In this document: positions 3,665 to 43,360 of the stretch, one piece after another | Layout of the letters: every line of letters starts with the position of its first letter | Position numbering within the stretch: the stretch's first letter is position 1 | NCBI RefSeq assembly: GCF_947489255.1 | Contig: NZ_CANLCY010000001.1 | Span: 744,001-808,000 of the forward strand | Direction: 5' to 3' | Length of the DNA: 64,000 nt | Origin: an uncultured Microbacterium sp. | GTDB lineage: Bacteria; Actinomycetota; Actinomycetes; Actinomycetales; Microbacteriaceae | Position numbers and translations under genes: made by a program | The notes under the pieces: generated by a model | Told to the model about the DNA's origin: nothing | Database searches by the model: none | What the model saw: the letters and a program-made list of their open reading frames with translations, nothing else

Positions 3665-3694
3665 GCGCCGAGCCCGCCCGCCCGGGGTGGGCGC

Positions 3695-5297: not shown

Positions 5298-5305
<8 letters not shown>
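3695..5305 (-). CDS. FAD-dependent oxidoreductase with C-terminal BFD [2Fe-2S] domain, nitrate reductase electron-transfer partner
   Basis: The 536-aa protein opens with a Rossmann FAD motif (VVLVGYGPVGARL) and has a second NAD-binding site (IVVLGAGVLGMELA, about residues 155-170). It ends in a bacterioferritin-associated-ferredoxin-like domain with C484-x-C486 and C518-GG-C521. This layout matches the N-terminal half of NADH nitrite reductases and the electron-transfer subunits of assimilatory nitrate reductases (NasB/NasC types). Its start lies 8 nt inside the end of nasA, so it is probably co-translated and passes NADH electrons to NasA. The BFD domain, often fused to NasA itself, is carried here by the partner. 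Confidence 0.88.
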
Positions 5306-7463
<2,158 letters not shown>

Positions 7464-7468
7464 GGTCG

Positions 7469-24594: not shown

Positions 24595-25868
24595 GGAGTG
24601 CTCCTTGCGGGGGTGGGGGAAGAGGGATCGGGGGTTCCGGGGCGGAGGAGGCTGAGCCTGTCGAAGCCTCCGGGGGTGTGGTGGGTGGCGGTCCCTTCGA
24701 CAGGCTCAGGGACCTGGGGTGCGTGCTCAGGAACCTGGGGCGCGGGGCCGGGGACCTGGGGTGCGGGGTCGGGGGCGTCGGGGGCGTCGGGGGTGGGCGG
24801 CGACGGCCGGGGGACCGGAGTGCGCGCCGGGGACCCGGCATCCGTTCGGGGGAAGACGAGGGCGCGCTGCACGCCGTAGCTGAGGACGAACAGCACCCCC
24901 TCGGTCACGACCTTCGCGGGCAGGAGTGCGAGACCGTTGTCGGTGAGGAACGACATCCATGCGATGTTGGATGCCAGCAGCGCGAGGGCCAGGACGCCGT
25001 AGCGGACCGCCTGACCGAGCATCGGCCCCTCGCCGGCGCGGAAGACCACGCGGCGGTTGACGACGAAGTTCGCGGTGGCCGACAGCACGCGGGCGGCGAT
25101 GATCGAGGGCACGAGCCACCCCGTCAGGGCCTGCAGCACGAGCAGCGCCACCGTGTCGACGACGAACGCCGCGAGCGACGACGACGCGAACAACAGCACC
25201 GGCAGCAGCACCCGCAGCGAATCGCGCACGGGGCGGAAGTGGCTCGAGGAATTGCGCTCGAGGTACACCGTGTCGATCGGCACCTCGTGCGCGGCCACGG
25301 CATCCGGTCCCAGGCGCAGCAGCATCCGCTGCTCGTACTCGAAGCCCTCACCCGGGATGCCGAGCACCCAGTCCAGGCGATCCGCGGGGATGCCGCGGAG
25401 CCCGGTCTGCGTGTCGCTGACGCGCCGACCCGTGGCCAGGCGGAACAGCCCCCGGGCTGCGGCGTTGCCCACGCGGCTGCGCAGGGGCACCGCCCCGTCG
25501 AAGCCGCGGACGCCCAGCACGAGCGCGCTGCGCCCATCGGCGGCGTCGGTGCGCAGGGCCTCGGCCACGCGGCAGACGTCGGTGGGCGCGTGCTGCCCGT
25601 CGGCGTCGGCGGTGACCACGTCGGCATCCGGATCGTGGGCGGCGATGTGGGCGAAGCCCGTCTTCAGCGCCGCGCCCTTGCCGCGGTTGTCGGGGTGGGT
25701 GAGCACGCGTGCGCCGGCATCGCCGACCGCGGCGAAGACCGGCTCGAACGACGGCCCGCTGCCGTCGTCGACGACGAGCACCTCGAGGTCGGGGTCGGCG
25801 GCGCGGAGCTCGCGCACGAGCCCCGGCAGGCGCGGGCCCGGCTCGTAGGCGGGGATGAGCACGAACAC
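24591..25868 (-). CDS. Bifunctional family-2 glycosyltransferase/GtrA protein
   Basis: The 425-aa protein joins two domains. Residues 1 to about 225 are a GT-A glycosyltransferase (VLIPAYEPG, VVDDGSG, DADGQH, GFEYEQRMLLRLG), which transfers sugar to a polyprenyl phosphate or similar acceptor. Residues about 225-350 are GtrA-like, with four membrane helices for lipid-linked sugar translocation. The last ~75 residues are low-complexity, with repeated APQVPE units, and are partly encoded by an inverted repeat at 24652-24709. The GTG start lies 3 bp after the glycosidase gene. Confidence 0.88.
   Translation of the reverse strand: MFVLIPAYEPGPRLPGLVRELRAADPDLEVLVVDDGSGPSFEPVFAAVGDAGARVLTHPDNRGKGAALKTGFAHIAAHDPDADVVTADADGQHAPTDVCRVAEALRTDAADGRSALVLGVRGFDGAVPLRSRVGNAAARGLFRLATGRRVSDTQTGLRGIPADRLDWVLGIPGEGFEYEQRMLLRLGPDAVAAHEVPIDTVYLERNSSSHFRPVRDSLRVLLPVLLFASSSLAAFVVDTVALLVLQALTGWLVPSIIAARVLSATANFVVNRRVVFRAGEGPMLGQAVRYGVLALALLASNIAWMSFLTDNGLALLPAKVVTEGVLFVLSYGVQRALVFPRTDAGSPARTPVPRPSPPTPDAPDAPDPAPQVPGPAPQVPEHAPQVPEPVEGTATHHTPGGFDRLSLLRPGTPDPSSPTPARSTP
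24652..24709. repeat. Inverted repeat inside the glycosyltransferase 3' end
   Basis: CTGAGCCTGTCGAAG (24652-24666) and CTTCGACAGGCTCAG (24695-24709) form a perfect 15-bp inverted repeat. The same core recurs in the array at 27041-27198. It is a dispersed REP-like palindrome seen in many high-GC genomes, here translated as the end of the glycosyltransferase (EPVEG and FDRLSLL). Confidence 0.85.
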
Positions 25869-26912: not shown

Positions 26913-27040
26913 GGCTCCAGAGAAGGCGCCCCGCCCTCACCGCGCCTGGGGCGGTCCCTATCCGCCGCCAAGAAGAGCTATGCGAGGGCGATGAGTTATC
27001 GAGCCGGACGTGGGGAGCGACGCGCGAGCGGGGCTCCGGT

Positions 27041-27198
27041 CCGTCGACAGGCTCAGGGACCTGCGGCGGGTTTCGGTCCCTTCGGCAGGCTCAGGGACCT
27101 GCGGCGGGCTGCGGTCCCTTCGACAGGCTCAGGGACCGCGGCGGGTTTCGGTTCCTTCGACAGGCTCAGGGACCTGCGGCGGGTTTCGGTCCCGTCAC
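27041..27198. repeat. Four-copy 38-bp tandem repeat array
   Basis: Four copies of a roughly 38-bp unit containing CGACAGGCTCAGGGACCTG are spaced 38, 38 and 37 bp apart. All have the same orientation. The core is the same as in the inverted repeat at 24652-24709. The array lies between the glycosidase gene and the two-component system promoter and has no coding features. Confidence 0.9.
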
Positions 27199-29728: not shown

Positions 29729-30157
29729 TCACCGGACGGCGTGCAGGAACTGCTCCTGCCCCAGCCGCGGACGCGAGGAGGCGATGCCCCGCATGCGCGT
29801 GACGTGACTCTCCGCGAAGACGCGGAGCAGCTTGACGCTGACGCCGAGCTCCTCGGCGAGTTCGGCTCCGCTCAGTCCGATGGCCTCGAGCTGAGCGAGA
29901 CGCCCGGGGTCGATGAGGATCCGGGCGGCGAAGACGTCGGCGGCGGCCTCGGCTTCGAGGTCGCCGGCTCCGCGATGATCGTGGAAGGCGTGTCCGAGTT
30001 CGTGCGCGATCACGCATGAACGTTCGACGGGAGTGAGTCGGGCGTCGTAGACGACTCGGCGTCGTTCGTGGTCGTAGAAGCCTCGGTACGGCTCGGGCAG
30101 GTGGGCTTCGCAGACGCTCACGCCCAGCTGACGTGCGATGCGCAGGAGTTCCGTCAC
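29729..30157 (-). CDS. ImmA/IrrE family metallo-endopeptidase
   Basis: The 142-aa protein carries the zinc protease motif HELGH (H52, H56 counted from GTG 30157) and a downstream EAEAAADVFAARIL helix with the third ligand. ImmA cleaves the phage-type repressor of ICEBs1 and IrrE cleaves DdrO, in both cases an XRE protein encoded next door. Here the XRE gene precedes it, and a TTGA overlap (TTG 30169) or the GGGGA-preceded GTG 30157 could serve as start. It probably inactivates the neighbouring repressor. Confidence 0.88.
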   Translation of the reverse strand: MTELLRIARQLGVSVCEAHLPEPYRGFYDHERRRVVYDARLTPVERSCVIAHELGHAFHDHRGAGDLEAEAAADVFAARILIDPGRLAQLEAIGLSGAELAEELGVSVKLLRVFAESHVTRMRGIASSRPRLGQEQFLHAVR

Positions 30158-30165
30158 CGTTCCCC

Positions 30166-30588
30166 TCAATCCGTCGCGGCGATCCGATCGTCGGTGTTGG
30201 CGGCGTCGCGTCGACCAGGAGCGACGTGGCCGAGATAGATCACGGCGTCCGCTTCCTCGAGGGTACGAGGGGGTTCCGACACCGACGCGAGGAGCTTCTG
30301 CAGACCGTCTTGTGGACTGCTCGGACCCGTCCGTCCGTCTGCGCCGTAGTCCTGCAGGGCCATGTCGACGATGTCCCGCGCGGAGACCCGGAGGGCGGCG
30401 GCGATGCGCTCGAGCTCGGAGACCGTCGTCTCGTTCACCCCGTCTTCGCGTCGTTTCAGGTTGGACAGAGGGATGCCGGTGCGGGCGGCGAGCGTCTCCC
30501 TGTTGAGATCGCGTCGCGCCCGCGCACTCCGGATCGCGGCACCCAGATGTTTGTCGAACGGGTGCGGCGTCTTTCTCGTGCGAGCCAT
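30166..30588 (-). CDS. XRE family transcriptional regulator
   Basis: The 140-aa protein has an N-terminal helix-turn-helix at about residues 15-70 (LGAAIRSARARRDLNRETLAARTGIPLSNLKRREDG, VSELERIAAALRVS). The C-terminal 70 residues are less ordered, probably including the region the ImmA-like protease acts on. ATG 30588 fits a leaderless start: TACGCT lies 6 nt upstream. It is divergent from the biosynthetic operon, with a palindrome between them. Confidence 0.86.
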   Translation of the reverse strand: MARTRKTPHPFDKHLGAAIRSARARRDLNRETLAARTGIPLSNLKRREDGVNETTVSELERIAAALRVSARDIVDMALQDYGADGRTGPSSPQDGLQKLLASVSEPPRTLEEADAVIYLGHVAPGRRDAANTDDRIAATD

Positions 30589-30632
30589 GTGCTCAGCGTA
30601 GGGGAGTGGCTCGTCGCGATGAGCGGGTGAAA

Positions 30633-30666
30633 TGGCTTGAGGAAGCCAAAAATGACTGGCTAGCAT
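30633..30666 (+). promoter_or_regulatory. Promoter with palindromic operator at the head of the biosynthetic operon
   Basis: TTGAGG (30637-30642), an 18-bp spacer and TAGCAT (30661-30666) form a good promoter, with ATG 30673 following after 6 nt. The -35 is embedded in the palindrome TGGCTT-GAGG-AAGCCA (30633-30648). A further half site TGGCT recurs at 30657, 24 bp from the first. The XRE protein encoded 45 bp to the left is the likely ligand. Confidence 0.6.
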
Positions 30667-30672
30667 TCACAC

Positions 30673-30894
30673 ATGCGCACAAATCGGCGATCAAACGCCT
30701 CGTTCGAGCACGGCCACGCCGAGGTCGGGCGAGGGGCCGACGCCGAGCTCCGAACGGCGGACATGCCCGTCCGGGAGTTCCTCGCGGAGGGGGCGCGGAG
30801 GGGGCTGACCACCGATCGGATGTTCCCGAGCCAGGGCACGTGCGCCACCGCCGTCCCCGGCCGGGATGCGTGCCCGATCTCGCGAGGCGACTGA
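30673..30894 (+). CDS. Possible leaderless small ORF (73 aa) at the operon head
   Basis: The ATG lies exactly 6 nt after TAGCAT, so the transcript would start at it. Third codon positions are mostly G or C, as expected for a gene in this genome. The protein has no recognised family. It is charged in the middle (VREFLAEGARRGLTTDRMF) and has two Cys in the last 19 residues (TCATAVPGRDAC). It could be a real small protein, a precursor peptide, or only a long leader of the operon. There is no homology evidence. Confidence 0.4.
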   Translation: MRTNRRSNASFEHGHAEVGRGADAELRTADMPVREFLAEGARRGLTTDRMFPSQGTCATAVPGRDACPISRGD

Positions 30895-30970
30895 TGCCGG
30901 TGCCCTCGCGCGCGGCGCGACCGCCGGTCCTCGGTCTCTTGTCACACCCCATAGCGAGCGGGAGCTCATC

Positions 30971-31870
30971 ATGTCCATTCAGGTGAAACACCTCCGCAAG
31001 AGCTACGGCACGTTCGAGGCCGTTCGAGATCTGTCCTTCGATGTACCCACGGGGTCGCTTTTCGCGTTCCTCGGAGCGAACGGCGCAGGCAAGAGCACCA
31101 CGATCGGCTGCATCACGACGGTCCTGCGTCCGACCTCCGGCACGATCCAGGTGCAGGACCGTGACGCGGTGGAAGACCCGTACGGGGTCCGAGAGGTGAT
31201 CGGCGCCGTCTTCCAGCAATCGCTCCTGGACCCGCTGTTGTCCGTCCGAGAGAACCTGGCGATCAGAGCGGGCTTCTACGGGCTACGGCGGCGCGAGGCC
31301 TCGGCGAGGATCGGCGAGCTGGCGGAGCTCGTCGGCCTCGAAGACTTCCTGGATCGTCGATACGGCGTGCTCTCGGGCGGACAGAAGCGCCGAGCCGACA
31401 TCGCGCGCGCGATCGTCCACCGCCCGAGCGTCGTCTTCCTCGACGAGCCCACCGCGGGCCTCGACCCCCAGTCGCGCGAGCAGATCTGGTCGGCGATCGG
31501 CCAGCTGCGCACAGACCACTCGACGACCGTCTTCCTCACGACCCACTACATGGAGGAGACCGAACGGGCCGATCAGGTGTGCATCATCTCCGAGGGACGG
31601 ATCATGGCCGAGGGAACTCCGGCCCACCTCCGGTCCTCCTTCAGCCGCAGCGTGCTGACCGTACGTACGCCCGACGTCTCGTCTTTCCTGGCCGAGTGCG
31701 ACGCGCGGGACGTCGTCGGCGAGCACAGCGGCGACGTCGTGCGCGTACCCGTCGACCGGGTGGAGCAGGCGAGGGAGCTCATCCAGGCGCCACAGGTCAC
31801 CGACTTCGAGTTCCGCCACGGAACGATGGACGACGTCTTCCTGAACGTGACCGGAGGGCGGGCGGCATGA
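30971..31870 (+). CDS. ABC exporter ATP-binding protein, DrrA type
   Basis: The 299-aa protein has Walker A GANGAGKST (residues 35-43), Q-loop VFQQSLLDP, signature LSGGQKRR and Walker B VVFLDEPTAGLD, plus the C-terminal extension of the DrrA/NodI exporter group. It powers the membrane protein encoded next. GGGAG precedes the ATG at good spacing. The permease ATG overlaps its stop. By position it is probably the exporter of the product of the operon. Confidence 0.93.
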   Translation: MSIQVKHLRKSYGTFEAVRDLSFDVPTGSLFAFLGANGAGKSTTIGCITTVLRPTSGTIQVQDRDAVEDPYGVREVIGAVFQQSLLDPLLSVRENLAIRAGFYGLRRREASARIGELAELVGLEDFLDRRYGVLSGGQKRRADIARAIVHRPSVVFLDEPTAGLDPQSREQIWSAIGQLRTDHSTTVFLTTHYMEETERADQVCIISEGRIMAEGTPAHLRSSFSRSVLTVRTPDVSSFLAECDARDVVGEHSGDVVRVPVDRVEQARELIQAPQVTDFEFRHGTMDDVFLNVTGGRAA

Positions 31871-32745
31871 GAACGGTCTCGATCCTCACGGGCCGCAATC
31901 TGCGCCTGTTCTTCCGCGACCGCGCCGGGGTGTTCTTCTCCCTCCTGTCCGCGCTGATCCTCATCGCGCTGTATGCGCTCTTCCTCGGGAATCTGCAGGT
32001 CGACAATCTGACGAAGCGCTTTCCGAACGCGGAGACCGGGGACATCCACTGGTTCGTGAATGCGTGGGTGTTCGCCGGGATCACCATGATCACGACCCTG
32101 ACGACGGCATTGGCCGCCCTGGCGGTCTTCGTCGACGACCGAGCGACCGGACGCTTCGGCGACTTCCTGGTGTCGCCCATCCGCCGCGTCGAGCTCATCC
32201 TGGGGTACCTTCTGTCGAGTTTTCTCATCTCGCTCGCCATGACCCTGGTCATCCTGGTCGTCGGGCAGGTCTACCTCCTCACGCAGGGCGATTCGATGAT
32301 GACCGCGAGCGAGGCGGGGGAGACGCTCGGATACGTCGCTCTGTCGAGCCTGGCCTTCGCGGCGTTGTCGAGCTTCGTCGTCACCTTCTTGCGCAGTTCC
32401 GGCGCTTTCGCGGCGCTGTCGACCGTGGTGGGAACCGTCATCGGCTTCCTCGCAGGGGCGTACATCCCCGTGGGCACGCTCCCGGACGCCATCGTGAACG
32501 GCATCAATGCGCTCCCGTTCGCGCAGTCGGCGATGCTGATCCGCGAGCCCATGACCGCGCAGGCGCTGACAGCACTCGCCGGCGACACCGGTCCGGCGGT
32601 CGACGCGGTCAAGACGTTCTACGGCATCTCGGCGAAGGTCGGCGACTTCGATGTCACGGCGAGCCTCGCAGCCGGCGTCCTGGTCGCGGTCTTCGTCGTG
32701 TTCGCTGCCCTGGGGGCGCGTCAGCTTGCTCGGCGGATCCGCTGA
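31867..32745 (+). CDS. ABC-2 type exporter permease
   Basis: The 292-aa protein has six predicted membrane helices and ABC-2 motifs (DRAGVFFSLLSALILIALYALFLG, then DFLVSPIRRVELILGYLLSSFL). It pairs with the preceding ATPase to export a hydrophobic small molecule. Its ATG overlaps the ATPase stop, and the last base of its own stop is the first base of the next ATG (TGATG), so translation is coupled into the malonyltransferase. Confidence 0.92.
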   Translation: MRTVSILTGRNLRLFFRDRAGVFFSLLSALILIALYALFLGNLQVDNLTKRFPNAETGDIHWFVNAWVFAGITMITTLTTALAALAVFVDDRATGRFGDFLVSPIRRVELILGYLLSSFLISLAMTLVILVVGQVYLLTQGDSMMTASEAGETLGYVALSSLAFAALSSFVVTFLRSSGAFAALSTVVGTVIGFLAGAYIPVGTLPDAIVNGINALPFAQSAMLIREPMTAQALTALAGDTGPAVDAVKTFYGISAKVGDFDVTASLAAGVLVAVFVVFAALGARQLARRIR

Positions 32746-33653
32746 TGCGCGGGACCTTTCTCGCGGTCCCCGGCCAGGGGAGTCAGACCCAGGGAATGGG
32801 AAGACAGCTCGTCGCTCGGCACCCCGCCGCACGAGCGACCTTCGATGAATCCGTGGACGCGCTCGGTTTCGACATGCGGGAGGTGATGTGGGGCACCTCC
32901 GCCGATGCCCTGACGGCGACCGAGTACGCCCAGCCCGCCATCGTTCTGCTCGCCGTCGCTGCGATGCGGGCGTGGCAGGCCGTGTCTCGCCCTCCCGCCG
33001 ATGTGCGATGGGTCACGGGCCACAGCGTCGGGGCGCTCGCCGCGGCGATCGCCGCGGAATCCCTCACCTTCGTCGACGGCATCCGGCTCGCGCGCGCCCG
33101 GGGTCAGCTGATGGGTTCGGCCCCGGGCGCGGGGGCCATGCTCGCCGTCGCGGTCACCTCCGACCGGGCTCGCGACGACGTCGCCCGCGCCGCTTCATCG
33201 TCGGGGCTGGACATCGCCTGCATCAACAGCGCGCGGCAGATCGTGCTCTCCGGAGCGCGAGAAGCGATATCCGAAGCGCGAGCGCGATTCGGCTCGCGCT
33301 GTCGTCTCCTCGACGTGAGCCACGGGTTCCACTCCTCGCTCATGGATCCGATCGTCGAGCGATGGGCCTCGGAAGTGGCGGCCCTGCCGTTCCGCGAGCC
33401 GCGCACGCCGTTGCTCTCGGCCCTCTCCGGGCGACTCCTCCATACAGCCGACGAGATCGAAAAGGACGTGCGAAGTGGAGTTCGTGAAACCGTGAGATGG
33501 GATCTGGTCACCGCGGTCGCGAACGAGAGCGGATGCCGTGCCGTCATCCTCGGCAACGGTCACACTCTGACTCGTCTATGGCGGGGGGAGGCCGTCGCGA
33601 ACGGCGCGACTATCGTCGACGACGGCTTCCGGAACGCAGCTCATGCAGCCTGA
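32745..33653 (+). CDS. Malonyl-CoA:ACP transacylase-like acyltransferase
   Basis: The 302-aa protein is a FabD-like acyltransferase with N-terminal VPGQGSQTQGMG, the nucleophile Ser94 in GHSVG, and His196 (GFHSS). It would load malonyl, or a related extender, onto the ACP of this operon. A family member near sucCD-type housekeeping genes would sit with fabF/acpP; here it is inside a specialised cluster. The ketoreductase ATG overlaps its 3' end by 11 nt. Confidence 0.9.
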   Translation: MRGTFLAVPGQGSQTQGMGRQLVARHPAARATFDESVDALGFDMREVMWGTSADALTATEYAQPAIVLLAVAAMRAWQAVSRPPADVRWVTGHSVGALAAAIAAESLTFVDGIRLARARGQLMGSAPGAGAMLAVAVTSDRARDDVARAASSSGLDIACINSARQIVLSGAREAISEARARFGSRCRLLDVSHGFHSSLMDPIVERWASEVAALPFREPRTPLLSALSGRLLHTADEIEKDVRSGVRETVRWDLVTAVANESGCRAVILGNGHTLTRLWRGEAVANGATIVDDGFRNAAHAA

Positions 33654-34380
33654 GCGGAGCGTCGTCGTCACGGGTGGTTCCCGGGGAATCGGCCGAGCGT
33701 GCGTCGAGACGCTCGCCGACGCGGGATGGCACGTCGTCGTGGTCTTCCGACGTGCCGTTGACGAAGCCGCGGAAGTCGTGCGGACCGTGGCGGACCGAGG
33801 GGGCTCTGCGTCGGCCGTGCAAGCCGATGTGGCATCTGAGGAGGATGTTCGAGAGCTGTTCCGAACTGTCCGCGCCGAGCATCCTCGGCTCGCGGGAGTC
33901 GTGTCGAACGCCGGAGTGACGCGTGACGGACTCACGCCGATGATGTCCCTCGCGACATGGAACGCCGTCGTCGAGACGAACCTCACGAGTTCGTTCCTGG
34001 TCGCCAGAGAGTCGCTGAAGGCGATGCGTCGGACCGGGGGATCCCTGGTCTTCATGAGCTCCGTGTCCGGCTTGCGCGGCCAGGTGGGGCAGGCTAACTA
34101 CTCCGCCAGCAAGGGGGCGGTGAATGCGATGACCCGGGCGCTCGCGCGGGAGGGTGCGGCGGTCGGCATTCGCGTCAATGCGGTCGCCCCTGGCTTCACG
34201 GACACGGACATGGTCCGTCGGATGCCGCGCGGGGATCTTGCGCGACTCGTCGACGCGGTACCCCTTCGCCGGATGGCGCAACCGCGCGAAGTGGCATCCC
34301 TCGCCCGCTTCCTTCTCAGTGATGACGCCTCGTACATCACCGGACAGATCATCTCGGTCGACGGCGGATTGACCGCCTGA
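33643..34380 (+). CDS. 3-oxoacyl-ACP reductase (FabG-like SDR)
   Basis: The 245-aa short-chain dehydrogenase has the NADPH motif TGGSRGIG, a catalytic Ser140-Tyr153-Lys157 triad (FMSSVSG, NYSASKG) and the terminal GQIISVDGG. It would reduce the beta-keto group of ACP-bound intermediates to a hydroxyl. No partner reductase for enoyl groups is present, which fits a polyene rather than a fully saturated product. Confidence 0.93.
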   Translation: MQPERSVVVTGGSRGIGRACVETLADAGWHVVVVFRRAVDEAAEVVRTVADRGGSASAVQADVASEEDVRELFRTVRAEHPRLAGVVSNAGVTRDGLTPMMSLATWNAVVETNLTSSFLVARESLKAMRRTGGSLVFMSSVSGLRGQVGQANYSASKGAVNAMTRALAREGAAVGIRVNAVAPGFTDTDMVRRMPRGDLARLVDAVPLRRMAQPREVASLARFLLSDDASYITGQIISVDGGLTA

Positions 34381-34402
34381 GACCTGCCCACGGAGAGTGA
34401 AC

Positions 34403-34687
34403 ATGGACTACCAAGAAGTGACGCAGCGTGCCATCGCCCGACGGGCGTTGAACGATCGAGTCAAAGAATTGATCGCCGAGGGGCTGGGGCTACACATCGC
34501 CGCGACGCTCATCGATGACGACCAGCCCCTCTTCGGACGTGGGCTCGAACTGGACTCGCTGGACACGCTCGAGATCGTGAGTCTGATCGACGAGAACTTC
34601 GGCGTCTACATCACCGACGACGACACCTTCGTTTTCGGTTCGATCAACGCCATCGCCGACTTCATCGAACAGGCGCGAGTGCCGTGA
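34403..34687 (+). CDS. Acyl carrier protein
   Basis: The 94-aa acidic protein has the phosphopantetheine site D51-S52-L (LELDSLDTLEIV) and the usual four-helix layout. It is somewhat divergent from primary-metabolism ACPs and has a 15-residue N-terminal extension. GGAGAG precedes ATG 34403; a GTG two codons upstream is less likely. Its stop overlaps the start of the dehydratase gene. The PPTase at the end of the operon is the probable activator. Confidence 0.92.
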   Translation: MDYQEVTQRAIARRALNDRVKELIAEGLGLHIAATLIDDDQPLFGRGLELDSLDTLEIVSLIDENFGVYITDDDTFVFGSINAIADFIEQARVP

Positions 34688-35130
34688 GCGCACGACGTGG
34701 TGCCGCGCTCGAGCCCGGTGAGATCGCCCGGCGGCTTCCCCACCGGCATCCCTTCCTGCTGCTCGATCGTGTCGACGACCTCGAGGTCGGTATCTCCGGC
34801 GTCGGAACCAAGAACGTTTCCATCTCCGATCCGGTTTTCGCCGGCCACTTCCCCGACAACCCGATCTACCCGGGCGTCCATATGGTCGAGGTCGCCGCGC
34901 AGCTGTGCGGGCTCATCGGCTCGTCCGACGAGCAGGGGCCGGTTCTGGGGTATCTGGCGTCGATCAAGCGGTTCAAGTTCCTCGCGCTGGTCGTCCCGGG
35001 CGACCAGATGAAGATCACGGCGCGAGCCGGCGCATCCATCGGCGCGCTGACCGAGTTTGCCGTCGAGATCACCGTCGCCGGCAGAGTCGTCGCGAGCGGT
35101 GTTCTCGCGATCGCCCGGGCCGCGGTCTGA
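34684..35130 (+). CDS. FabZ-like 3-hydroxyacyl-ACP dehydratase
   Basis: The 148-aa hotdog-fold protein has LPHRHPFLLLDRV, the catalytic His55 (GHFPDNPIYPG) and Glu69 fourteen residues later (HMVEVAAQ), the same spacing as FabZ. It dehydrates hydroxyacyl-ACP to enoyl-ACP. With no enoyl reductase in the operon, repeated cycles would leave conjugated double bonds. The GTG start overlaps the ACP stop (GTGA). Confidence 0.92.
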   Translation: MSARRGAALEPGEIARRLPHRHPFLLLDRVDDLEVGISGVGTKNVSISDPVFAGHFPDNPIYPGVHMVEVAAQLCGLIGSSDEQGPVLGYLASIKRFKFLALVVPGDQMKITARAGASIGALTEFAVEITVAGRVVASGVLAIARAAV

Positions 35131-35139
35131 GAGCGCCCC

Positions 35140-37185
35140 GTGACCGCCGAGATCCGTGAACTCACCGCGCAGGACGACCTCGACCGCGTTGCCGAGTTCT
35201 TCGCCCGGAATGCCTATGGCCCGCCGAGTGGTGCCCTGACGGGAGCATGGCTCGGAGGCGTGTTCCGCGAGCGCGGTGTGCGTCTCTTCCTGGTCGCGGA
35301 GGAGCGCGGCAAGATCGTCGCGACCATCGGTTACGCGGCGATGTCGGGACGTCGGGTGGCCCCGGCGGGTCAGCTCTTCGCGGGGATGTTCGTGATCGCG
35401 CCGAGCCATCGGACGGGCATGCTGGCGGGGCGCCTTTTCACCGATTCCTTCGACCGATTGGTCGCCTCAGGAGTCCGGGGTCTGCGTGTCGAGGTCGACC
35501 CGGCGAACACCCGCGCGTTTCCTCTTTACGTCCGTGTGGGGTTCAGAGCCCTCGACGGGATGACCCCGGATGAGGACGGTTACGTCGAGCTCGTCAGTGT
35601 GCTCCCCGGGGTGACGGCTGATCTGATGAACAATGCGGCCACCTGGACAGGTCGATCGCTCGGTGGGGGTCAGCGCAACTGGCGCTCCATCCGGAGCTCC
35701 CGCGCACAATCCGTCAACAGTGGAATCGTCCGCCGTCCGAAGGGCGTCGACGCGATCCGCTACGAGTTCGAGCTTCCCGGCCTCTTCGTCAGCGCGACCG
35801 GCCGTGTGAACGACGCCGCGCTTCTGGCACTCTCTGTGAACGATTCCCCGGCACCGGGTTTCGTGCCGCCGGATGACAACGACGGTGCGCATCGCACCCA
35901 TGTCACGAGGTCGAGGGCGGTCGGGGACTTCACGGTGGCCGTCGATGACCGAGGTGCCCTCGTCGTCTCGCATCCGGCTCACCTCGGTCCCGTTGTCGCC
36001 GACCCGCATCCGGTCGCAGGGGCGTCGGCCGCGGGTCCGCGGCGACCGCTCTCGCGTCCCGTGGTGGTCGACATGGCTGTCGACAGCTGGCGCATCGACG
36101 ACGGCGACGTGGAGCGCGTCGTGGAGTTCCTCCCGTCCGGGGTACGGGTGACAGCGACGAGTCGGGACGCGAGCGAGGTGGTGAGTTACCCCCGCCTGGG
36201 GTTGCGCGTCGCGCACCTCACTCTCCTGCGCGACGGCACGGAGGTGCACTCCGCCCACGCTGTGCGCGGGCGGTGGCCCGTCGATCGCGTGGACTTCGAG
36301 GCGGCCGCTGACGCGACGAGCTCTTGGCCGGCCGATGGCGCTGAGGTCGTCTGGAGCGACGGACTTTCGGGAATCACCGTTGCGGCGACGCGTCTTCGGG
36401 GACGAAGGATACGGCTCGAGGGAGGGCACCTGGTCCGCCTTTCGGGCGAGGGGACGGCGGGGTACGACCTGGCGTTGACGGCGGCCGCGCGCTCCGCCTT
36501 CGAATGGACGGAAAGCGACTGTCGAGTGATCGACACGTGGCGGCGCTCGCGGCGCGCCCTGGCCGACGTCATCCGCACGACGACGGACGCAGGAACGCTC
36601 ACGGTGGCGCCGGACGCCGGGCTCGTGGAGTGGACTCGCGACAGCCTCACCGTGGTGTCGTCGCCGTTCCCCTCCCGGCGGTCGATCGGTCCACTCACGA
36701 CAGTCTCGACGGCGCTCTGGGTGTGCGCACAACCGGATCGCACGGATGGCGATCGAGGTGCGGTGTGGCCGACGGACGACGCCCGGGTCCCCTTTCAGGC
36801 GGGCGGAGAATGCGACGAGGCGGGATGGTCCCTGGTGACGTTCGAGGGAACCACCGATCTGGGCCTGCGGGTGAGCGCCCGCGCCGAGGAACGCAAGCAG
36901 GAGGCCGTCGTCTTCCTGATGCTCGCCAAGGTGAAGCGGGTCGCGGTCGCAGACGCGGCGGGTGGGCGGGTCGACCTGGATGTGTCCCCGGGACCGTGGC
37001 GCACGTGGACGCGGGAAGCGGGTTTCCACATGGACCAGGGGTGGCTTCACCTCGCACCCGTGTGCGGAGCCTCTCCCGAGATTCTGATCCGCTCCACCCC
37101 GCAGGGCGTGCTGATCGCCGCCTACTCGCGACTCTCCTCGAAGCCCACGGCGACGGTGTGGCGCTTCCGGTGGGAGGCGTCATGA
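35140..37185 (+). CDS. GNAT-like domain fused to a large beta-rich domain of unknown function
   Basis: The 681-aa protein begins with a GNAT-like domain (residues about 1-155, FAGMFVIAPSHRTGMLAGRLF and NTRAFPLYVRVGFRAL). About 520 residues follow with many short beta-strand-like segments, Trp-rich spots and no membrane helix or signal peptide. I do not recognise the second part; it resembles carbohydrate-active beta-sandwich proteins only in a general way. It overlaps the next gene (ATGA) and starts 10 bp after the dehydratase gene, so it belongs to the pathway. It may acylate the carrier-bound chain, by inference. Confidence 0.75.
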   Translation: MTAEIRELTAQDDLDRVAEFFARNAYGPPSGALTGAWLGGVFRERGVRLFLVAEERGKIVATIGYAAMSGRRVAPAGQLFAGMFVIAPSHRTGMLAGRLFTDSFDRLVASGVRGLRVEVDPANTRAFPLYVRVGFRALDGMTPDEDGYVELVSVLPGVTADLMNNAATWTGRSLGGGQRNWRSIRSSRAQSVNSGIVRRPKGVDAIRYEFELPGLFVSATGRVNDAALLALSVNDSPAPGFVPPDDNDGAHRTHVTRSRAVGDFTVAVDDRGALVVSHPAHLGPVVADPHPVAGASAAGPRRPLSRPVVVDMAVDSWRIDDGDVERVVEFLPSGVRVTATSRDASEVVSYPRLGLRVAHLTLLRDGTEVHSAHAVRGRWPVDRVDFEAAADATSSWPADGAEVVWSDGLSGITVAATRLRGRRIRLEGGHLVRLSGEGTAGYDLALTAAARSAFEWTESDCRVIDTWRRSRRALADVIRTTTDAGTLTVAPDAGLVEWTRDSLTVVSSPFPSRRSIGPLTTVSTALWVCAQPDRTDGDRGAVWPTDDARVPFQAGGECDEAGWSLVTFEGTTDLGLRVSARAEERKQEAVVFLMLAKVKRVAVADAAGGRVDLDVSPGPWRTWTREAGFHMDQGWLHLAPVCGASPEILIRSTPQGVLIAAYSRLSSKPTATVWRFRWEAS

Positions 37186-37244
37186 CCGCGGTCGTCCCCT
37201 TCGCAGACGCAGACAACTCGACCGACGACCTTTCAAGGAGAATC

Positions 37245-38225
37245 ATGTCCACGAGCTCGGAGTACTTCTCGCTTCGTCGAACCGCGGGCGCCTACGCGCG
37301 CGGCACGACCATCCATTCGATCGGAGGTGCGGGCCGCGGCGCCCTTCTGTCGCACGTCATCGCCCGGCCGACCGAGTTCGCCCAACCAGGATCGGTCGTC
37401 GACTCGCTCGTGCTCGATGACGATGGCCGGGTCGTGGACTTCGTGCTCGCCGTTCTCGATGAGGACCGCACCCTCGTGATTTCGGAGCATCGCCCGGATG
37501 CCGGCGAGGACATGCGCGCGGTCGCGCTCTCGCTCGGAATCCACGATGTGACGGTCGACGTCCTCACCGGCTGGGGAGTCCTCGCCATCGAGGGCCCCCG
37601 CTCGTGGGAAGTCGTCGGTGGACTCGCCGCAGACGATATCGCGACCCTGCTCCTGAACGAATGGCAGCCCGTCGAGATCCCGGGGGCGTCGGTCGCGCTT
37701 CTCGCGCGAACCGGCACGACGGCCGAGTACGGGTACGTCGTCGTCGCAAATGTGGGCCCGGGAGTGCTCATGGACGTTTTCCGGCCCCGACTGGCCCAGG
37801 TCGGGGGTGCATTCGTCGGCCCCGAGGCTCTCCTCCGGGCGCGGATCGAGGTGAACCATCCGGTGGTGCCCGACCAGTTCGACGGCATCACCGTGCCCGA
37901 GGCGGGGGCCGGGTGGGCGGCGGGTGTCGGTCGCGAAGACCCGTACCGTGGAGCCGGTCACGCCGTCCCGCCTGAACGCCGACTCGTTGCCGTTCGAGCG
38001 ACCCGTTCCCTCGAGCGTGGAAGCGCGGTCGAGGCCGGCGGGGTGACGGTGGGTCGCATCCATCTCTGCGCGGCCGATATCGACGGCGAGGGCGGCTATG
38101 CCCTCGCCCTGCTCGATACCCCCTTCGACGTCCCCGGGCTGGAGCTGACCGCCGACGGTCGGACGATCCGAACAGTGTCGCGGCCGGCGGTCCAGCCCGT
38201 CTCCTGGACCGAGACCATCGGATGA
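37245..38225 (+). CDS. GcvT-like folate-binding (aminomethyltransferase-fold) protein
   Basis: The 326-aa protein fits the GcvT/YgfZ/DmdA fold (EYFSLRRTAGAYARG at the start, then VLAIEGPRSWEVV, TGTTAEYGYVVVA, and the C-terminal RLVAVRATR and GGVTVGRI barrel). GcvT family enzymes transfer one-carbon units to or from tetrahydrofolate. A role in C1 transfer within this pathway is inferred. I chose ATG 37245 because AAGGAG lies 5 nt upstream; ATG 37182 in the same frame overlaps the previous stop and would add 21 residues. Confidence 0.8.
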   Translation: MSTSSEYFSLRRTAGAYARGTTIHSIGGAGRGALLSHVIARPTEFAQPGSVVDSLVLDDDGRVVDFVLAVLDEDRTLVISEHRPDAGEDMRAVALSLGIHDVTVDVLTGWGVLAIEGPRSWEVVGGLAADDIATLLLNEWQPVEIPGASVALLARTGTTAEYGYVVVANVGPGVLMDVFRPRLAQVGGAFVGPEALLRARIEVNHPVVPDQFDGITVPEAGAGWAAGVGREDPYRGAGHAVPPERRLVAVRATRSLERGSAVEAGGVTVGRIHLCAADIDGEGGYALALLDTPFDVPGLELTADGRTIRTVSRPAVQPVSWTETIG

Positions 38226-40624
38226 TCGCCTCCGACGTCGTCGTCACCGGGGTCGGGTTGCTCGCGGCTGTCGGCCTCGACGCCCAGCGAAGCTGGGCCG
38301 CCATCACAGCAGGTTCTTCCGGCATCTCCCGTGTGACGTCGGTCGACGCCGACGGCTTCATCTCGCAACTCGCGGGGGAACTGCCCGGGGGTTCCGACTG
38401 GAAGGCCACTGTGCCGCGCCGAGCCGGGCGGGGTAGGGTCGACCGATGCCATGCCATGGCGCTTGATGCGACCGAGGAGGCCGTCGCCGGTGCCCGTCTC
38501 GCGGCGGCCGACTATGCACCGGAGCGCGTGGGCATCTCGTTCGGTACATCGTTGGGTGGCGCACGCTCCGGTGAGGCCTTTCACCGCCAGTGGCTCGAAG
38601 AGGGGTTGCGACGTGCGGACGCGAGCCTCCTCCGCCAATATCCTCTCCATTCGGTCGCGGACTACATCGCGGAGCAATTCGGCTACACCGGACCTCGAAC
38701 TGTGCAGTCGAATGCATGCGCTGCGGGGGCGGTCGCCATTGCCTACGGCGTGGAACTCATCGAGAGCGGGCACGCGGATGTCGTGATCGCGGGAGGGGTC
38801 GATCCTCTCGCCTACTTCTCGTTCGGCGGCTTTTCCTGCCTCGAGGCGCTGGACCCCCTGCACTGCGCCCCGTACACGCGCAGCAGCGGTCTCAACCTCG
38901 GCGAGGGGGCCGGCGTCGTCGTGCTCGAGAGGCGGGCTGCGGCGCAGGCGCGCGGCATCCCCGTTCTCGCCGTGGTCCGGGGCTATGGCCTCAGCGCGGA
39001 CGCGCACCACCCCACCGCTCCGGATCCCACCGGGCGGGGTGCGCTTCGCGCGATGAGAGCCGCGCTCGACATGGGCGGATTGTCGCCCGACGATGTCGAC
39101 TACGTGAACGGACACGGCACGGGCACACCCGCGAACGACAGCACGGAGACGCGGGCCATCGCTCAGCTGCGTCCGTCCGACCCGCCTCCCCTCAGCTCCA
39201 CCAAGTCGATGATCGGGCACACGCTCGGCGCTGCCGGAGCCGTGGAAGCGGTCACGGCCGTGCTCGCGCTTCGTGACAGCGTGTTCCCCCCGACGGTCGT
39301 TCCGCCCGATGCGATGGACGCGCCGCATGGCCTCGATATCGTCCCCGCGGCTGGACGAACGGGTGCTTTGTCAGCGGCGCTGTCCAACTCCTTCGCGTTC
39401 GGCGGCAACAACGCATCCCTTCTGCTCACCCGCGACGACCCCGCTGCTCGGGGGGAGTCGTCTGCGTCGACGGAGCGCCCCGTCGTCATCACCGGTACCG
39501 CAGCCATCGCGGCGGATGCGAAAGACTCGGCCGACGTGCGAGCCCTCCTCCGGGCGTGGAAGCCGGCGTACGGAACGCAACGGGTCACGCTGGAGGGCTA
39601 TGGCGATTTCCCGGTTGCGGAGATCCCGGAAAAGCACCTCACGCGCGGTGTGAACCCGCAGATGCTGCGACGCATCGACAATCTCGGACGCCGAGCCGCG
39701 GTCGTGGTGGCGGACCTGCTGCGCGAGCGCAAGCTGAGCCGCGACGAAGCCTCGCGGACGGGGCTGATTTTCGCCACCGGAACGGGCCCCCTGTCCACGG
39801 TGGAGGCCTTTCAGAGAGAACTCATCCAGACAGGGTCCGGCAACACGCGTCTCTTCCCGAATACCGTGATGAACGCGGCCGGTGGCCACGTCGCCCTGCT
39901 CAACAGGCTTCAGGGACCCACGGCCACGATCTGCGCGGGCGGGACGTCCGGCATCTCCGCGCTTCACTTCGCCACCCGTCTGATCCAGCGCGGAGCGGCG
40001 GACCGGATGATGGTGCTCTCGGCGGACGAGGCGCCCGTGGCGATGCTGGCGGCGCACGCGCGTATCGATGGATTCCTCTCGCGGGAACGCTGTCTCCCGT
40101 TCCGGAACTCGGGCAAGGTCTTCGGCGGAGCCGGCGTGGCCGTTCTTCTGGAGGCGGCCGCGACGGCTCCGCAGGAAAAGACGATGGGATGGATCGAGGG
40201 ATTCGGCATGACCGGGGACGCGAGTGGCCCGGGACGACTCGAGGCCTCGAGCGACGGCTGGTCGCGGTCGTTCCGGAGTGCTCTGGTCGACGCAGGAGTC
40301 GCCGCGTGCGACGTGGACGTCGTCGTCTCGGCGGCGTGCGGTCGCGCTGCGATCGACGACACCGAGACGACGGCGGTCCGGGATGCCGGTCTGAGTTCGG
40401 CCGTCCTCTCGGCACCCAAGGAGATCTTCGGCGACGCGGGGGCCTCGTCGGCGTTGCTCGGTGTCGCTCACGCGCTCTGGATGAGCGAGGAGACGGACGA
40501 CGGCGCCCTCGATCGAAAAGCGCGAGCGAGCCCGGGCCGTTCACTACCGAGGCGGGCGATCGTCTCGTCGTACGAGGTGGGAGGCAGCTATCAGTCCGTC
40601 GTCGTTCGGTCTCGCGACGCCTGA
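38222..40624 (+). CDS. Fused ketosynthase and chain-length-factor-like protein
   Basis: The 800-aa protein is two FabF-like domains in one chain. Domain 1 (residues 1 to about 405) has the active triad Cys166 (SNACAAGAVA), His298 (NGHGTGT) and His333 (KSMIGHTLGAAGA). Domain 2 (about 420-800) keeps the fold but not the triad: the Cys position is Gly574 (CAGGTSG), the GHGTGT is ACGRAA, and the last GH is GD. This matches a KS-CLF heterodimer of type II polyketide synthases, here in one polypeptide. It would build the chain on the ACP. The ATG overlaps the GcvT-like stop. Confidence 0.88.
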   Translation: MIASDVVVTGVGLLAAVGLDAQRSWAAITAGSSGISRVTSVDADGFISQLAGELPGGSDWKATVPRRAGRGRVDRCHAMALDATEEAVAGARLAAADYAPERVGISFGTSLGGARSGEAFHRQWLEEGLRRADASLLRQYPLHSVADYIAEQFGYTGPRTVQSNACAAGAVAIAYGVELIESGHADVVIAGGVDPLAYFSFGGFSCLEALDPLHCAPYTRSSGLNLGEGAGVVVLERRAAAQARGIPVLAVVRGYGLSADAHHPTAPDPTGRGALRAMRAALDMGGLSPDDVDYVNGHGTGTPANDSTETRAIAQLRPSDPPPLSSTKSMIGHTLGAAGAVEAVTAVLALRDSVFPPTVVPPDAMDAPHGLDIVPAAGRTGALSAALSNSFAFGGNNASLLLTRDDPAARGESSASTERPVVITGTAAIAADAKDSADVRALLRAWKPAYGTQRVTLEGYGDFPVAEIPEKHLTRGVNPQMLRRIDNLGRRAAVVVADLLRERKLSRDEASRTGLIFATGTGPLSTVEAFQRELIQTGSGNTRLFPNTVMNAAGGHVALLNRLQGPTATICAGGTSGISALHFATRLIQRGAADRMMVLSADEAPVAMLAAHARIDGFLSRERCLPFRNSGKVFGGAGVAVLLEAAATAPQEKTMGWIEGFGMTGDASGPGRLEASSDGWSRSFRSALVDAGVAACDVDVVVSAACGRAAIDDTETTAVRDAGLSSAVLSAPKEIFGDAGASSALLGVAHALWMSEETDDGALDRKARASPGRSLPRRAIVSSYEVGGSYQSVVVRSRDA

Positions 40625-40640
40625 GGGTCTGAAAGCGGCG

Positions 40641-41174
40641 GTGTGGTCCGTCGAGGCCCGTCCCTCTCCAACCGACGCGCTCGGCCGATTGCTCGAACCG
40701 TCTGCTTCACGCGTCCTGCGAGAGATCGTGAAGGTGACGCCTTGCGAGGGTGGAGGGCGTTGTAGACCCCACGCCGCGGCGAGCGGACGGTGGGTGTGTC
40801 CGGGATGCGGAATGCACTGGAGTACAACGGCAACTCCGGGTCGTGCGATGGTCAGTCGATCCGCGTTCCCCTGCGGCATCGACGTCGAGCGGACCGACCG
40901 TCAGCGGCCTGCCGCTTTCCGCGCCGCGAGTCGGTGGTGCGCATCGCCCATCCGCAGCGCTCGACAATGGACTCAAGCCGAGGCGATCTGGAAGGCCACC
41001 CGTCCCGTGCCCCTCCTCGGGGTCGACCTCATCCCGATTCCCTTCGCGACGGGCTCGGGGTGGCAGCTCAGCGCCGACGTATCCTGGTGGGTTCACTCAT
41101 CCGAGTCGAACGGAGGCTACGTCTGGTCGCTGGCGGTGTCGCGCCGATCTCGCGCGATGCTCTCCGGGGAGTGA
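40641..41174 (+). CDS. 4'-Phosphopantetheinyl transferase
   Basis: The 177-aa protein has the Sfp-type metal and CoA motifs GIDVE (D81, E83) and WTQAEAIWKAT (W110, E114, K118). It would convert the apo-ACP of this operon to the holo form. The N-terminal third is divergent and unusually rich in Cys. The GTG start lacks a good ribosome-binding site and lies 16 bp after the synthase gene, so it is probably read through from it. It is the last gene of the operon. Confidence 0.8.
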   Translation: MWSVEARPSPTDALGRLLEPSASRVLREIVKVTPCEGGGRCRPHAAASGRWVCPGCGMHWSTTATPGRAMVSRSAFPCGIDVERTDRQRPAAFRAASRWCASPIRSARQWTQAEAIWKATRPVPLLGVDLIPIPFATGSGWQLSADVSWWVHSSESNGGYVWSLAVSRRSRAMLSGE

Positions 41175-41279
41175 GGTGCGCTCCCCGCCCATCTCACCCA
41201 TGGATGAAGGTGGCGCGGGGGAATCGCGGAATGAACGGCGTGAGGCGAGGCGACGAGGGGGAACGAGATGAGCAGTCCC

Positions 41280-41324
41280 TAGCATCCGGGTATGCGGCAA
41301 TCCACTTCGGCTCTCCTCCCATGA
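41280..41324 (+). promoter_or_regulatory. Leaderless promoter and 10-codon upstream ORF
   Basis: TAGCAT (41280-41285) is followed after 6 nt by ATG 41292, the same geometry as at 30661-30673. This ATG opens a ten-codon frame (MRQSTSALLP) whose TGA overlaps the ATG at 41321 (ATGA). A ribosome translating it would end exactly on the start of the membrane protein gene. Confidence 0.5.
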
Positions 41325-41998
41325 CTGCACGACCGCAGCCCCCCGGGCGGGATCTGCTCGATGACGGAGGTCGACTGAGTGCGCAGTATCGCGTCGCGGC
41401 GTGGCTCGTGATCGCGCAGGGAGCGGTGATGGAGGTCGGAGCCTTCCTCGCAATGCCGGTCCTCGTCATGCTGGACGTAGACGAGAGCGGAATCGGCGAA
41501 CACTTCCACTTCGCCTTGCGATACTTCCAAGACAACCTCTATCTCCTCATGGTCATGAGCGGGATTTTCGGCGTCCTTCGGGTTCTCGGGGGTGTCGGTA
41601 TTCTTCGGAACCGTTTATGGGGTCTCGTCGTGACTGCGGTGATGTGCCTCGTCACCCTCGTTCTCATGATCTTCATGCTCCCGGCGGGCATCGCCGATGG
41701 CCTGCTGTCGGGCGGGGCCCTCGTGCTCATCGTCGTCTCGTGGTGCGGGCAGCGTCCTCTGCCGGGGCGAAAGGTTGCCGAGGGCTGCGGGGGCGGTGCC
41801 CCGGCGACCGGCCAACAGGGCTCGACGCCCGGGGGCCTCTCGCCGAAGCGGTCATCTCGTGCCTCACGGCGCGGCTCAAAAAACGAACCTCGCAGGCCGA
41901 AGCGACGTGGTGCGCTGGGCGGAGTCCGGAGAAGTGAGCCGGCGCGGCCAAGGCGGAGCGAGCGGACGGATCAGGTCACGACGCGGGCGGGCACGTGA
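41321..41998 (+). CDS. Integral membrane protein of unknown function
   Basis: The 225-aa protein has four hydrophobic helices between residues about 20 and 145 (VAAWLVIAQGAVMEVGAFLAMPVLVML, YLLMVMSGIFGVLRVLGGVG, WGLVVTAVMCLVTLVLMIFMLPAG, LLSGGALVLIVVSWCG). The C-terminal 75 residues are basic, low in complexity and probably disordered. I do not recognise the family. It lies after the biosynthetic operon but has its own promoter and a short upstream frame. Confidence 0.65.
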   Translation: MTARPQPPGRDLLDDGGRLSAQYRVAAWLVIAQGAVMEVGAFLAMPVLVMLDVDESGIGEHFHFALRYFQDNLYLLMVMSGIFGVLRVLGGVGILRNRLWGLVVTAVMCLVTLVLMIFMLPAGIADGLLSGGALVLIVVSWCGQRPLPGRKVAEGCGGGAPATGQQGSTPGGLSPKRSSRASRRGSKNEPRRPKRRGALGGVRRSEPARPRRSERTDQVTTRAGT

Positions 41999-42134
41999 GC
42001 GCGAACTCGATTGTCGCGTCGCACTGCTCACACCTCGCTCCCGCCGGCACAGCGGCATCCGCACCCCCTCCCATCGAAGGGACAAGGGTCGGGCGGTTTC
42101 ACCCCCGTCCGGTAGGGTGGACGCTTGGCACAGA

Positions 42135-42152
42135 TCTCTTGATATCAAGAGA
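42135..42152. promoter_or_regulatory. Perfect palindrome upstream of sucC
   Basis: TCTCTTGATATCAAGAGA is an 18-bp perfect palindrome, 45 bp before the sucC start. It is AT-rich in an otherwise GC-rich region. It is probably an operator of a dimeric regulator controlling sucCD; I cannot name the regulator. Confidence 0.65.
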
Positions 42153-42196
42153 CTTTCGCCTCCTCCCACCACCGATCGCCCAGCGAAGGATTGTCC

Positions 42197-43360
42197 GTGG
42201 ATCTCTACGAGTACCAGGCACGTGATCTGTTCGAAAAGTACGAGGTGCCGGTGCTCGCCGGCATCATCGCCGACACCCCTGAGGAGGCGAAGGCGGCCGC
42301 TGAGAAGCTCGGTGGTGTCGTCGTCGTCAAGGCTCAGGTCAAGACCGGAGGCCGCGGCAAAGCCGGCGGCGTGAAGGTCGCGAAGAACCCCGACGAGGCG
42401 TTCGAGGCGGCCCAGGCCATCCTCGGTCTCGACATCAAGGGTCACGTCGTCAAGCGCGTCATGGTCGCCGCCGGCGCCCGCATCGCCAAGGAGTTCTACT
42501 TCTCGGTGCTGCTCGACCGCGCCAACCGCTCTTACCTCTCGCTCTCCAGCGTCGAGGGCGGCATGGAGATCGAGGAGCTCGCCGTCGAGCGTCCCGAGGC
42601 GCTCGCCCGCGTCGAGGTCGACCCGCTCGAGGGCATCACCCCCGAGAAGGCCCTCGAGATCGCCAAGGCCGCGAAGTTCGACGACGAGCTGGCGCCCAAG
42701 GTCGCCGACGTGTTCGTGAAGCTCTTCAACGTCTACAAGGGCGAGGACGCCACTCTCGTCGAGGTGAACCCGCTCATCCAGAGCGAAGACGGCGACATCA
42801 TCGCCCTCGACGGCAAGGTCTCGCTCGACGAGAACGCCGGCTTCCGTCACCCCGAGCACGAAGAGCTCGAAGACAGGGACGCCGCCGACCCGCTCGAGGC
42901 CAAGGCCAAGCAGCACGACCTCAACTACGTCAAGCTCGACGGTCAGGTCGGCATCATCGGCAACGGCGCGGGCCTGGTCATGTCGACCCTCGACGTCGTC
43001 GCCTACGCCGGTGAGAAGCACGGCGGCGTCAAGCCCGCCAACTTCCTCGACATCGGTGGCGGCGCCTCGGCGACCGTCATGGCCGCCGGCCTCGACGTCA
43101 TCCTCGGCGACGAGCAGGTCAAGAGCGTCTTCGTCAACGTCTTCGGCGGCATCACCTCGTGCGTCGCCGTGGCCGAGGGCATCGTGAAGGCCCTCGAGAT
43201 CCTGGGCGACACCGCGACCAAGCCGCTGGTCGTCCGCCTCGACGGAAACCAGGTCGAAGAGGGTCGCGAGATCCTCGCCGCCGCCAACCACCCGCTCGTC
43301 ACTCTCGCCGCCGGTATGGACGAGGGCGCCGACAAGGCCGCCGAACTGGCCAACGCGTAA
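42197..43360 (+). CDS. sucC: Succinyl-CoA synthetase beta subunit (ADP-forming)
   Basis: The 387-aa protein has an ATP-grasp fold at the N-terminus ([38 protein letters not shown]) and the C-terminal ligase domain with [13 protein letters not shown] and the FVNVFGGIT motif. With SucD it interconverts succinyl-CoA and succinate, with ATP formation, in the TCA cycle. I chose GTG 42197 because AAGGA lies 6 nt upstream. sucD follows after 19 bp. Confidence 0.97.

Follow-up and report, generated by a model that had tools for sequence, protein, structure and literature searches.

Type II polyketide synthases (PKSs) include a polyene subgroup that makes an unsaturated chain, and the cispentacin (Amc) and coronafacic acid (Cfa) systems combine a discrete pair resembling a ketosynthase (KS) and chain length factor (CLF), an acyl carrier protein (ACP) and a dehydratase (DH)-like enzyme to give a non-aromatic product (PMC10698177). 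Here we analyze a ten-gene operon with the parts of such a reducing synthase, located on a stretch of 64,000 nucleotides from an uncultured Microbacterium sp. (contig NZ_CANLCY010000001.1, positions 744,001 to 808,000; hereafter the window). The operon also encodes a GcvT-like protein and a GNAT fusion protein. By comparing the locus across bacteria, we define a group of reducing type II PKSs, found in two phyla, in which this relative of a folate enzyme belongs to the core; the Microbacteriaceae version adds a GNAT protein with predicted sugar-enzyme folds. Our favored explanation, which we consider about evenly balanced between right and wrong, is that the PKS set builds a polyenoyl chain on the ACP, that the GcvT-like protein modifies the bound chain, that the GNAT fusion transfers it, and that an ATP-binding cassette (ABC) pair exports the product.

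Results

We found ten plus-strand genes at 30971-41174 in the 3.53-Mb host genome, whose closest named KS-CLF match is in Microbacterium enclense (84%). The genes had initially been described as overlapping or nearly abutting, and the nine junctions agree: five overlap by 4-11 bases, three have gaps of 9-16 bases, and, with a start at 37245, the gap preceding the GcvT-like gene comes to 59 bases. We regard this start as the most likely one, because AAGGAG sits 4 bases 5' of its ATG and it yields 326 aa, about the length of many relatives. Pfam confirms the families ABC_tran, ABC2_membrane, Acyl_transf_1, short-chain dehydrogenase, PP-binding, FabA/FabZ, GNAT, GCV_T, and ketoacyl synthase. All ten genes are under purifying selection, with ratios of nonsynonymous to synonymous substitution rates of 0.10-0.27 between the window and M. 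enclense (L007).

The initial annotation had named a missing conserved neighborhood as an outcome that would refute its reading. Such a neighborhood is present: the operon gene order is common to seven relatives (L007, L144-L149) in four genera including Microbacterium. L157, a second copy of the L007 locus, is excluded from this count. The phosphopantetheinyl transferase (PPTase) was not recognized in L148. Five of the seven (L144-L146, L148, L149) have a DUF6365 gene, absent from the window, that separates the GNAT gene from the GcvT gene; compared with solved structures, its product gave one chance-level match.

The subfamily is rare. Of 398 family genomes, 7 have a strong GcvT match (E below 1e-90), and a full-length KS-CLF occurs in 2 of 295 genomes of the genus, the own genome included in both counts; the genus scan scored three candidates per genome, and distant KS-CLFs could escape it. 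A third match in the genus (G213) covers the KS part only, at 40%, with one internal stop. In a class sample of 394 genomes, seven others have a GcvT match at E<=1e-37. Outside the own genome, a KS-CLF adjoins GcvT at 13 of 13 loci (all GcvT matches at E<=1e-37) and at neither of two control loci holding the next-ranked GcvT matches (L158, L159); in every locus compared, the GcvT-like gene is directly 5' of the KS-CLF gene. Among 75 loci found by KS-CLF similarity, a GcvT of the PKS-linked kind is present in L007 only, within the DNA examined; KS-CLFs in general are therefore not accompanied by GcvT.

On the Priestia megaterium plasmids pBMG6 and pBM500, genes for a short-chain dehydrogenase/reductase (SDR), a thioesterase, a PPTase, a malonyltransferase (MAT), a ketoreductase (KR), an ACP, FabZ, a GcvT-like protein, a fused KS-CLF, a small protein, and a major facilitator superfamily (MFS) transporter run in one direction. 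A small annotated GNAT gene farther upstream of the polyketide operon occurs on pBM500 only.

In a KS tree of 94 rows (two of 95 loci yielded no KS row), all 18 GcvT-linked KSs, or 16 without the near-copies L007/L157 and L160/L161, fall on one side of a branch with support 95/60. In 94% of 200 bootstrap trees, GcvT linkage requires a single change, and none of 500 label shuffles gave a value as low. The fused KS-CLF of a Streptomyces plasmid adjoins the GcvT-linked group (98/93). Pairwise identities of KS-CLF and GcvT are correlated (r=0.971, 16 loci), a value that none of 2000 permutations matched; the identity correlations for KR, DH, and ACP (16 loci), MAT (15), and GNAT (9) are 0.94 to 0.97, likewise reached in 0 of 2000 permutations. 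This parallel divergence fits inheritance of the PKS core and GcvT as a unit. Together with the conserved gene order, it led us to reject a chance neighborhood.

The GcvT-like and GNAT proteins had both been taken as foreign to such pathways. We correct this on both counts. Judged by gene content and order, GcvT belongs regularly to one group of KS-CLFs, which spans two phyla. The GNAT fusion is present in all seven relatives, L150, and L190, and also beside a different reducing PKS (see below); it is absent from L151-L156, which have GcvT, and from L160, which has a PKS core of the GcvT-linked group. L190 shows matches to KR, ACP, DH, GNAT fusion, GcvT, and KS/CLF in that order, and is the sole other genome of the order with the GNAT profile (n=297; three candidates scored per genome).

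The GcvT-like protein has a T-protein fold. The folate-contacting Glu, matched by motif to E189 of SesA, is kept in 16 of 16 PKS-linked GcvTs. Conservation is tight in the EGP and RxGxTxE motifs, EGP replacing the QGP of ordinary GcvTs; alignment A1 took 30 of 56 GcvT matches. E189 of SesA contacts folate, and BrdA proteins all keep E189 and keep D95 in some cases only (PMC5547118). A family scan of the ten proteins found neither GcvH nor GcvP in the operon. The same genome encodes a separate GcvT whose neighboring frames, judging by their translated starts, look like GcvH and GcvP, and it has yet another GCV_T match, the third in all. Given this separate GcvT and the motifs of the operon protein, we rejected the idea that the latter is a plain duplicate of the housekeeping enzyme.

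The fused KS-CLF is a single 800-aa frame with two ketoacyl-synt units. Catalytic residues had been reported as intact in MAT, KR, DH, ACP, KS, and PPTase, and comparison of the window with its relatives bears this out: Ser and His are kept in 15 of 15 MAT rows, and Ser, Tyr, and Lys of KR, Asp-Ser of ACP, His and Glu of DH, and the Cys-His-His triad of the KS half in 16 of 16 rows each. PPTase motifs are recognizable, with variation, in the 7 rows found; these motifs and a matching gene at the same position in six relatives, not the Pfam score, point to a probable PPTase. In the CLF half, Gly replaces the active Cys in the window, and L156 has Cys at that position. An enoyl reductase, thioesterase, aromatase, and cyclase had been said to be missing. 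Indeed, none of the last three families is among the matches listed for the ten proteins. The sole reductase matches PF13561, a family that Pfam describes as enoyl-ACP reductase; its best NCBIfam match is 3-oxoacyl-ACP reductase (254.0 bits, below cut-off), and hence no separate enoyl reductase is seen. Compared with the KS half, chain 6kxd_A, which we take to be Iga11-Iga12, scores 198.8 bits, lower than many FabF chains; the tree held no characterized polyene KS.

The GNAT fusion is a protein of 681 aa. The initial annotation had called it a GNAT-beta fusion: the GNAT fold is present, and the "beta" part can be refined to two predicted galactose-mutarotase-like domains, whose sequences are not convincingly related. 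The motif [Q/R]xxGx[G/A], which we take to be the P-loop consensus of acetyl-CoA-using GNATs, occurs at the P-loop in 0 of 24 sequences (alignment A2 took 23 of 34 GNAT matches), and the single regex match (P0014) lies upstream of the P-loop. In L150, the GcvT-GNAT-KS/CLF core stands in line with SbnA and SbnB, both above cut-off, which by these assignments would make diaminopropionate, an amine. We note that the L150 and L173 cluster combines the core with diaminopropionate synthesis genes, an adenylation enzyme, and a lone lantibiotic-dehydratase N-terminal protein. We rejected diaminopropionate as the acceptor in the window's genome, which has no SbnA match at the cut-off; SbnB was not searched for.

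Table 1. Genes of the operon in the window, with positions and supporting matches
Feature	Position	Strand	Evidence
ABC exporter ATPase, DrrA-like	30971..31870	+	PF00005 113.7 bits; TIGR01188 DrrA 268.6 bits, below 312.45 cut-off
ABC-2 exporter permease	31867..32745	+	PF01061 50.9 bits
Malonyltransferase (MAT)	32742..33653	+	PF00698 123.5 bits; GHSVG and His kept
Ketoreductase, FabG-like	33643..34380	+	PF13561 211.2 bits; TIGR01830 254.0 bits, below cut-off; NF009466 FabG 228.7 bits, above 222 cut-off
Acyl carrier protein	34397..34687	+	PF00550 35.9 bits; LDSLD motif
Dehydratase, FabZ-like	34684..35130	+	NF000582 FabZ 121.1 bits, above 113 cut-off; catalytic His and Glu kept
GNAT acyltransferase domain (aa 1-165) with two predicted galactose-mutarotase-like domains (aa about 250-450, 466-681)	35140..37185	+	
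GcvT-like protein	37245..38225	+	Alternative start 37182
KS half, fused KS-CLF	38222..39451	+	TIGR03150 FabF 419.9 bits (whole protein), below cut-off; Cys-His-His kept
CLF half, fused KS-CLF	39452..40624	+	Second ketoacyl-synthase unit; Gly at active-site Cys position
PPTase (putative)	40641..41174	+	ACPS 15.9 bits, below 25-bit cut-off; GIDVE and EAxxKA motifs; same position in six relatives

The operon is flanked by a response regulator gene on one side and by sucCD on the other. A scan of 30500-42300 for sigma-70-type promoters found no such pattern, a result that is weakly informative for a high-GC actinobacterium, and PADLOC gave no match for three of the proteins. Copies of the permease with at least 65% identity occur in 10 of 295 genus genomes, the own genome included and one copy partial. 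Six congeners (G006, G016, G020, G171, G233, G267; loci L176, L179-L182, L185) have the ABC pair without PKS matches in the slot upstream of sucCD; their permease is 73-94% identical to that of the window, and the pair is broken in G267 (L185). A lone ABC pair in this slot looks like immunity without production. The slot of G150 and G073 (L183, L184, L187) holds the ABC pair and a GNAT fusion, 35% identical to that of the window, close to genes resembling KS, KR, and DH that belong to a different reducing PKS. G150, the one annotated, also has genes for an amine-oxidase-type flavoenzyme, an RPE65-type carotenoid oxygenase, and MacB-like proteins. Exporter and GNAT fusion may form a module serving two PKSs.

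Other contents of this region were also observed. In G007, the slot (L175 about 1834-8349) has apparent SagB/TOMM-type genes together with an ABC pair, as read from translated starts only; the slot may therefore be a hotspot for biosynthetic clusters. Beside the operon in the window, a gene for a helix-turn-helix (HTH) regulator with an ImmA-like peptidase lies on the minus strand at 29729-30666. Because it is also found beside other slot contents (L175, L187), this gene is not tied to the PKS. A 38-base repeat array of 4.2 copies occupies 27031-27196, with a further copy about 2.3 kb upstream at 24683-24714; 100 shuffles gave no match to the repeat.

Discussion

The initial annotation had taken the locus for a type II polyketide-like operon that includes an exporter and, by analogy with highly reducing systems, had suggested an ACP-bound polyene or similar chain. 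The reading as a reducing type II operon with exporter is supported by our comparison, and the polyene product stands as a proposal. We infer the following reactions. MAT would load malonyl onto the ACP, the fused KS-CLF would condense, and KR and DH would reduce and dehydrate in each round. Because these cycles would run without enoyl reduction, the chain should stay unsaturated, with conjugated double bonds. The GcvT-like protein would work on the phosphopantetheine arm of the ACP in much the way that T-protein handles the lipoyl arm of H-protein, and, if the kept Glu functions as elsewhere, it would move a one-carbon unit between folate and the ACP-bound chain. The GNAT fusion would shift the chain to a polar acceptor, replacing the thioesterase of the Priestia version; its predicted mutarotase-like domains could provide the site for this acceptor, be it sugar-like or otherwise polar, and export of the product would fall to the ABC pair. 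More specifically, and only tentatively, since we think it doubtful, the GcvT-like protein may be a carrier-protein-directed one-carbon transferase: a T-protein that has exchanged H-protein, with its lipoyl arm, for an ACP with its phosphopantetheine arm, and that adds or removes folate-borne carbon on the growing polyketide. To our knowledge, folate-borne one-carbon tailoring is not known for any PKS.

Several points weigh against our favored explanation. (i) The catalytic Asp of T-protein, presumably the second Asp of the DD pair, is present in 20 of 20 ordinary GcvTs (of 45 canonical loci, 20 passed trimming and 25 were dropped) and in 0 of 16 PKS-linked ones, which have Phe, Leu, Val, Thr, Ile, Gln, or Glu at this position; of the LRxE motif found in ordinary GcvTs, the PKS-linked proteins retain the Arg in just 6 of 16 cases. 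For these two reasons, folate chemistry may be lost. (ii) Every one of the 50 best Foldseek rows for the GNAT fusion is a GNAT protein, and the mutarotase-like domains were drawn from fewer rows of a second structural search. The departure of the P-loop from the consensus suggests an unusual donor, which does not imply acyl-ACP. (iii) One support for the KS grouping is only 60, and the grouping is root-dependent, being a clade only if the root lies elsewhere; it also holds the composition-flagged L160 and L161 beside the long-branched L162. Species descent could partly account for the identity correlation. (iv) Release must differ in L151-L156, as GcvT occurs there without the GNAT fusion. (v) The family scan found no evident amine- or sugar-making gene among the ten operon genes, and we know of no product for any member of the GcvT-linked PKS group.

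Given the first of these points, the GcvT-like protein may have no folate chemistry and may instead serve the KS-CLF as a partner that binds the chain, as an isomerase, or as a scaffold, which we consider possible, somewhat short of an even chance. The missing Asp in all 16 proteins favors this view, and the constant position directly 5' of the KS-CLF gene suits a physical partner. It sits less well with the tightly kept EGP and RxGxTxE motifs. Two homologs of unseen gene context, P0092 (a Bacillus thuringiensis record) and P0096, retain the catalytic Asp, and for this reason the ancestor of the group may have been a folate enzyme. Moreover, some Asp-less BrdA enzymes belong to a set described as tetrahydrofolate (THF)-dependent, and since only some BrdA proteins have D95, the homologous Asp is not conserved throughout the THF-dependent relatives (PMC5547118).

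We assign the GNAT fusion a role in release. GNAT loading domains are known from modular PKSs, and this precedent, along with the non-canonical P-loop, would agree with a protein that loads the chain start decarboxylatively and has no role in release. We think this unlikely, because PKS cores of the same group stand without the fusion in L151-L156 and L160, where it is thus unneeded for chain start. That it also stands with this exporter next to another PKS, one of a different kind, suits a late step, and its place in line with diaminopropionate genes in L150 also argues against loading.

The exported product could also be a membrane or cell-wall lipid flipped by the ABC pair, with no diffusible metabolite. 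The operon enzymes resemble those of fatty acid synthesis, and carbohydrate-type domains would suit a glycolipid. However, the distribution is patchy, as the full-length KS-CLF counts in the genus illustrate, and the exporter pair without a PKS at the same chromosomal slot in six congeners would fit immunity to a secreted compound, so we hold a lipid product to be quite improbable. A system of the cispentacin/coronafacic acid type making a five-membered ring is highly improbable, and identity with such a cluster was rejected: matches to the AmcF, AmcE, and AmcB models exist and are all below cut-off (256.0/325, 67.1/140, and 28.3/80 bits), the DH is above the NF000582 FabZ cut-off, and neither AmcG nor AmcH is among the matches listed (the existence of such models was not checked), whereas nearly all clusters of this type are described as holding AmcB, F, G, and H homologs (PMC10698177). 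A flexirubin cluster was likewise rejected, as FlxB scored 224.6 against a 340-bit cut-off.

The PKS chassis is of a known kind; the chemistry of the GcvT-like protein would be new. If one-carbon transfer by this protein is true, it would be a way of branching or trimming polyketides without S-adenosylmethionine, common to Actinomycetota and Bacillota. Direct testing is feasible because the operon has just ten genes and has plasmid-borne relatives in Priestia megaterium.

Among the open-access papers listed in our literature searches, we found none on a characterized cluster with these genes, nor on GcvT or glycine cleavage combined with a type II PKS, which does not imply absence from print. 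The highly reducing type II PKS of the ishigamide type (Iga11-Iga12) has the same KS with a Cys-less partner and separate KR, DH, and ACP; here, in contrast, KS and CLF form one polypeptide, and the GcvT-like and GNAT-fusion genes are extra. The Amc and Cfa systems are alike in their discrete KS-CLF-like pair, ACP, and DH-like enzyme, and differ in that AmcB, AmcE, and AmcF score below cut-off here. The exporter shares its ABC-2 architecture with the daunorubicin exporter DrrAB, although DrrA (268.6/312.45 bits) and DrrB (36.6/223.05 bits) both fall below cut-off. Unlike GcvT and the THF-dependent demethylases LigM, DmdA, BrdA, and SesA, the protein described here lacks the Asp, has EGP for QGP, and is encoded in a PKS operon. 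The Priestia operon of pBM500 and pBMG6, for which we found no characterization, has the same order as the window, MAT-KR-ACP-DH-GcvT-KS/CLF, and differs by having a thioesterase, an SDR, and an MFS transporter and by including neither a GNAT fusion nor an ABC pair.

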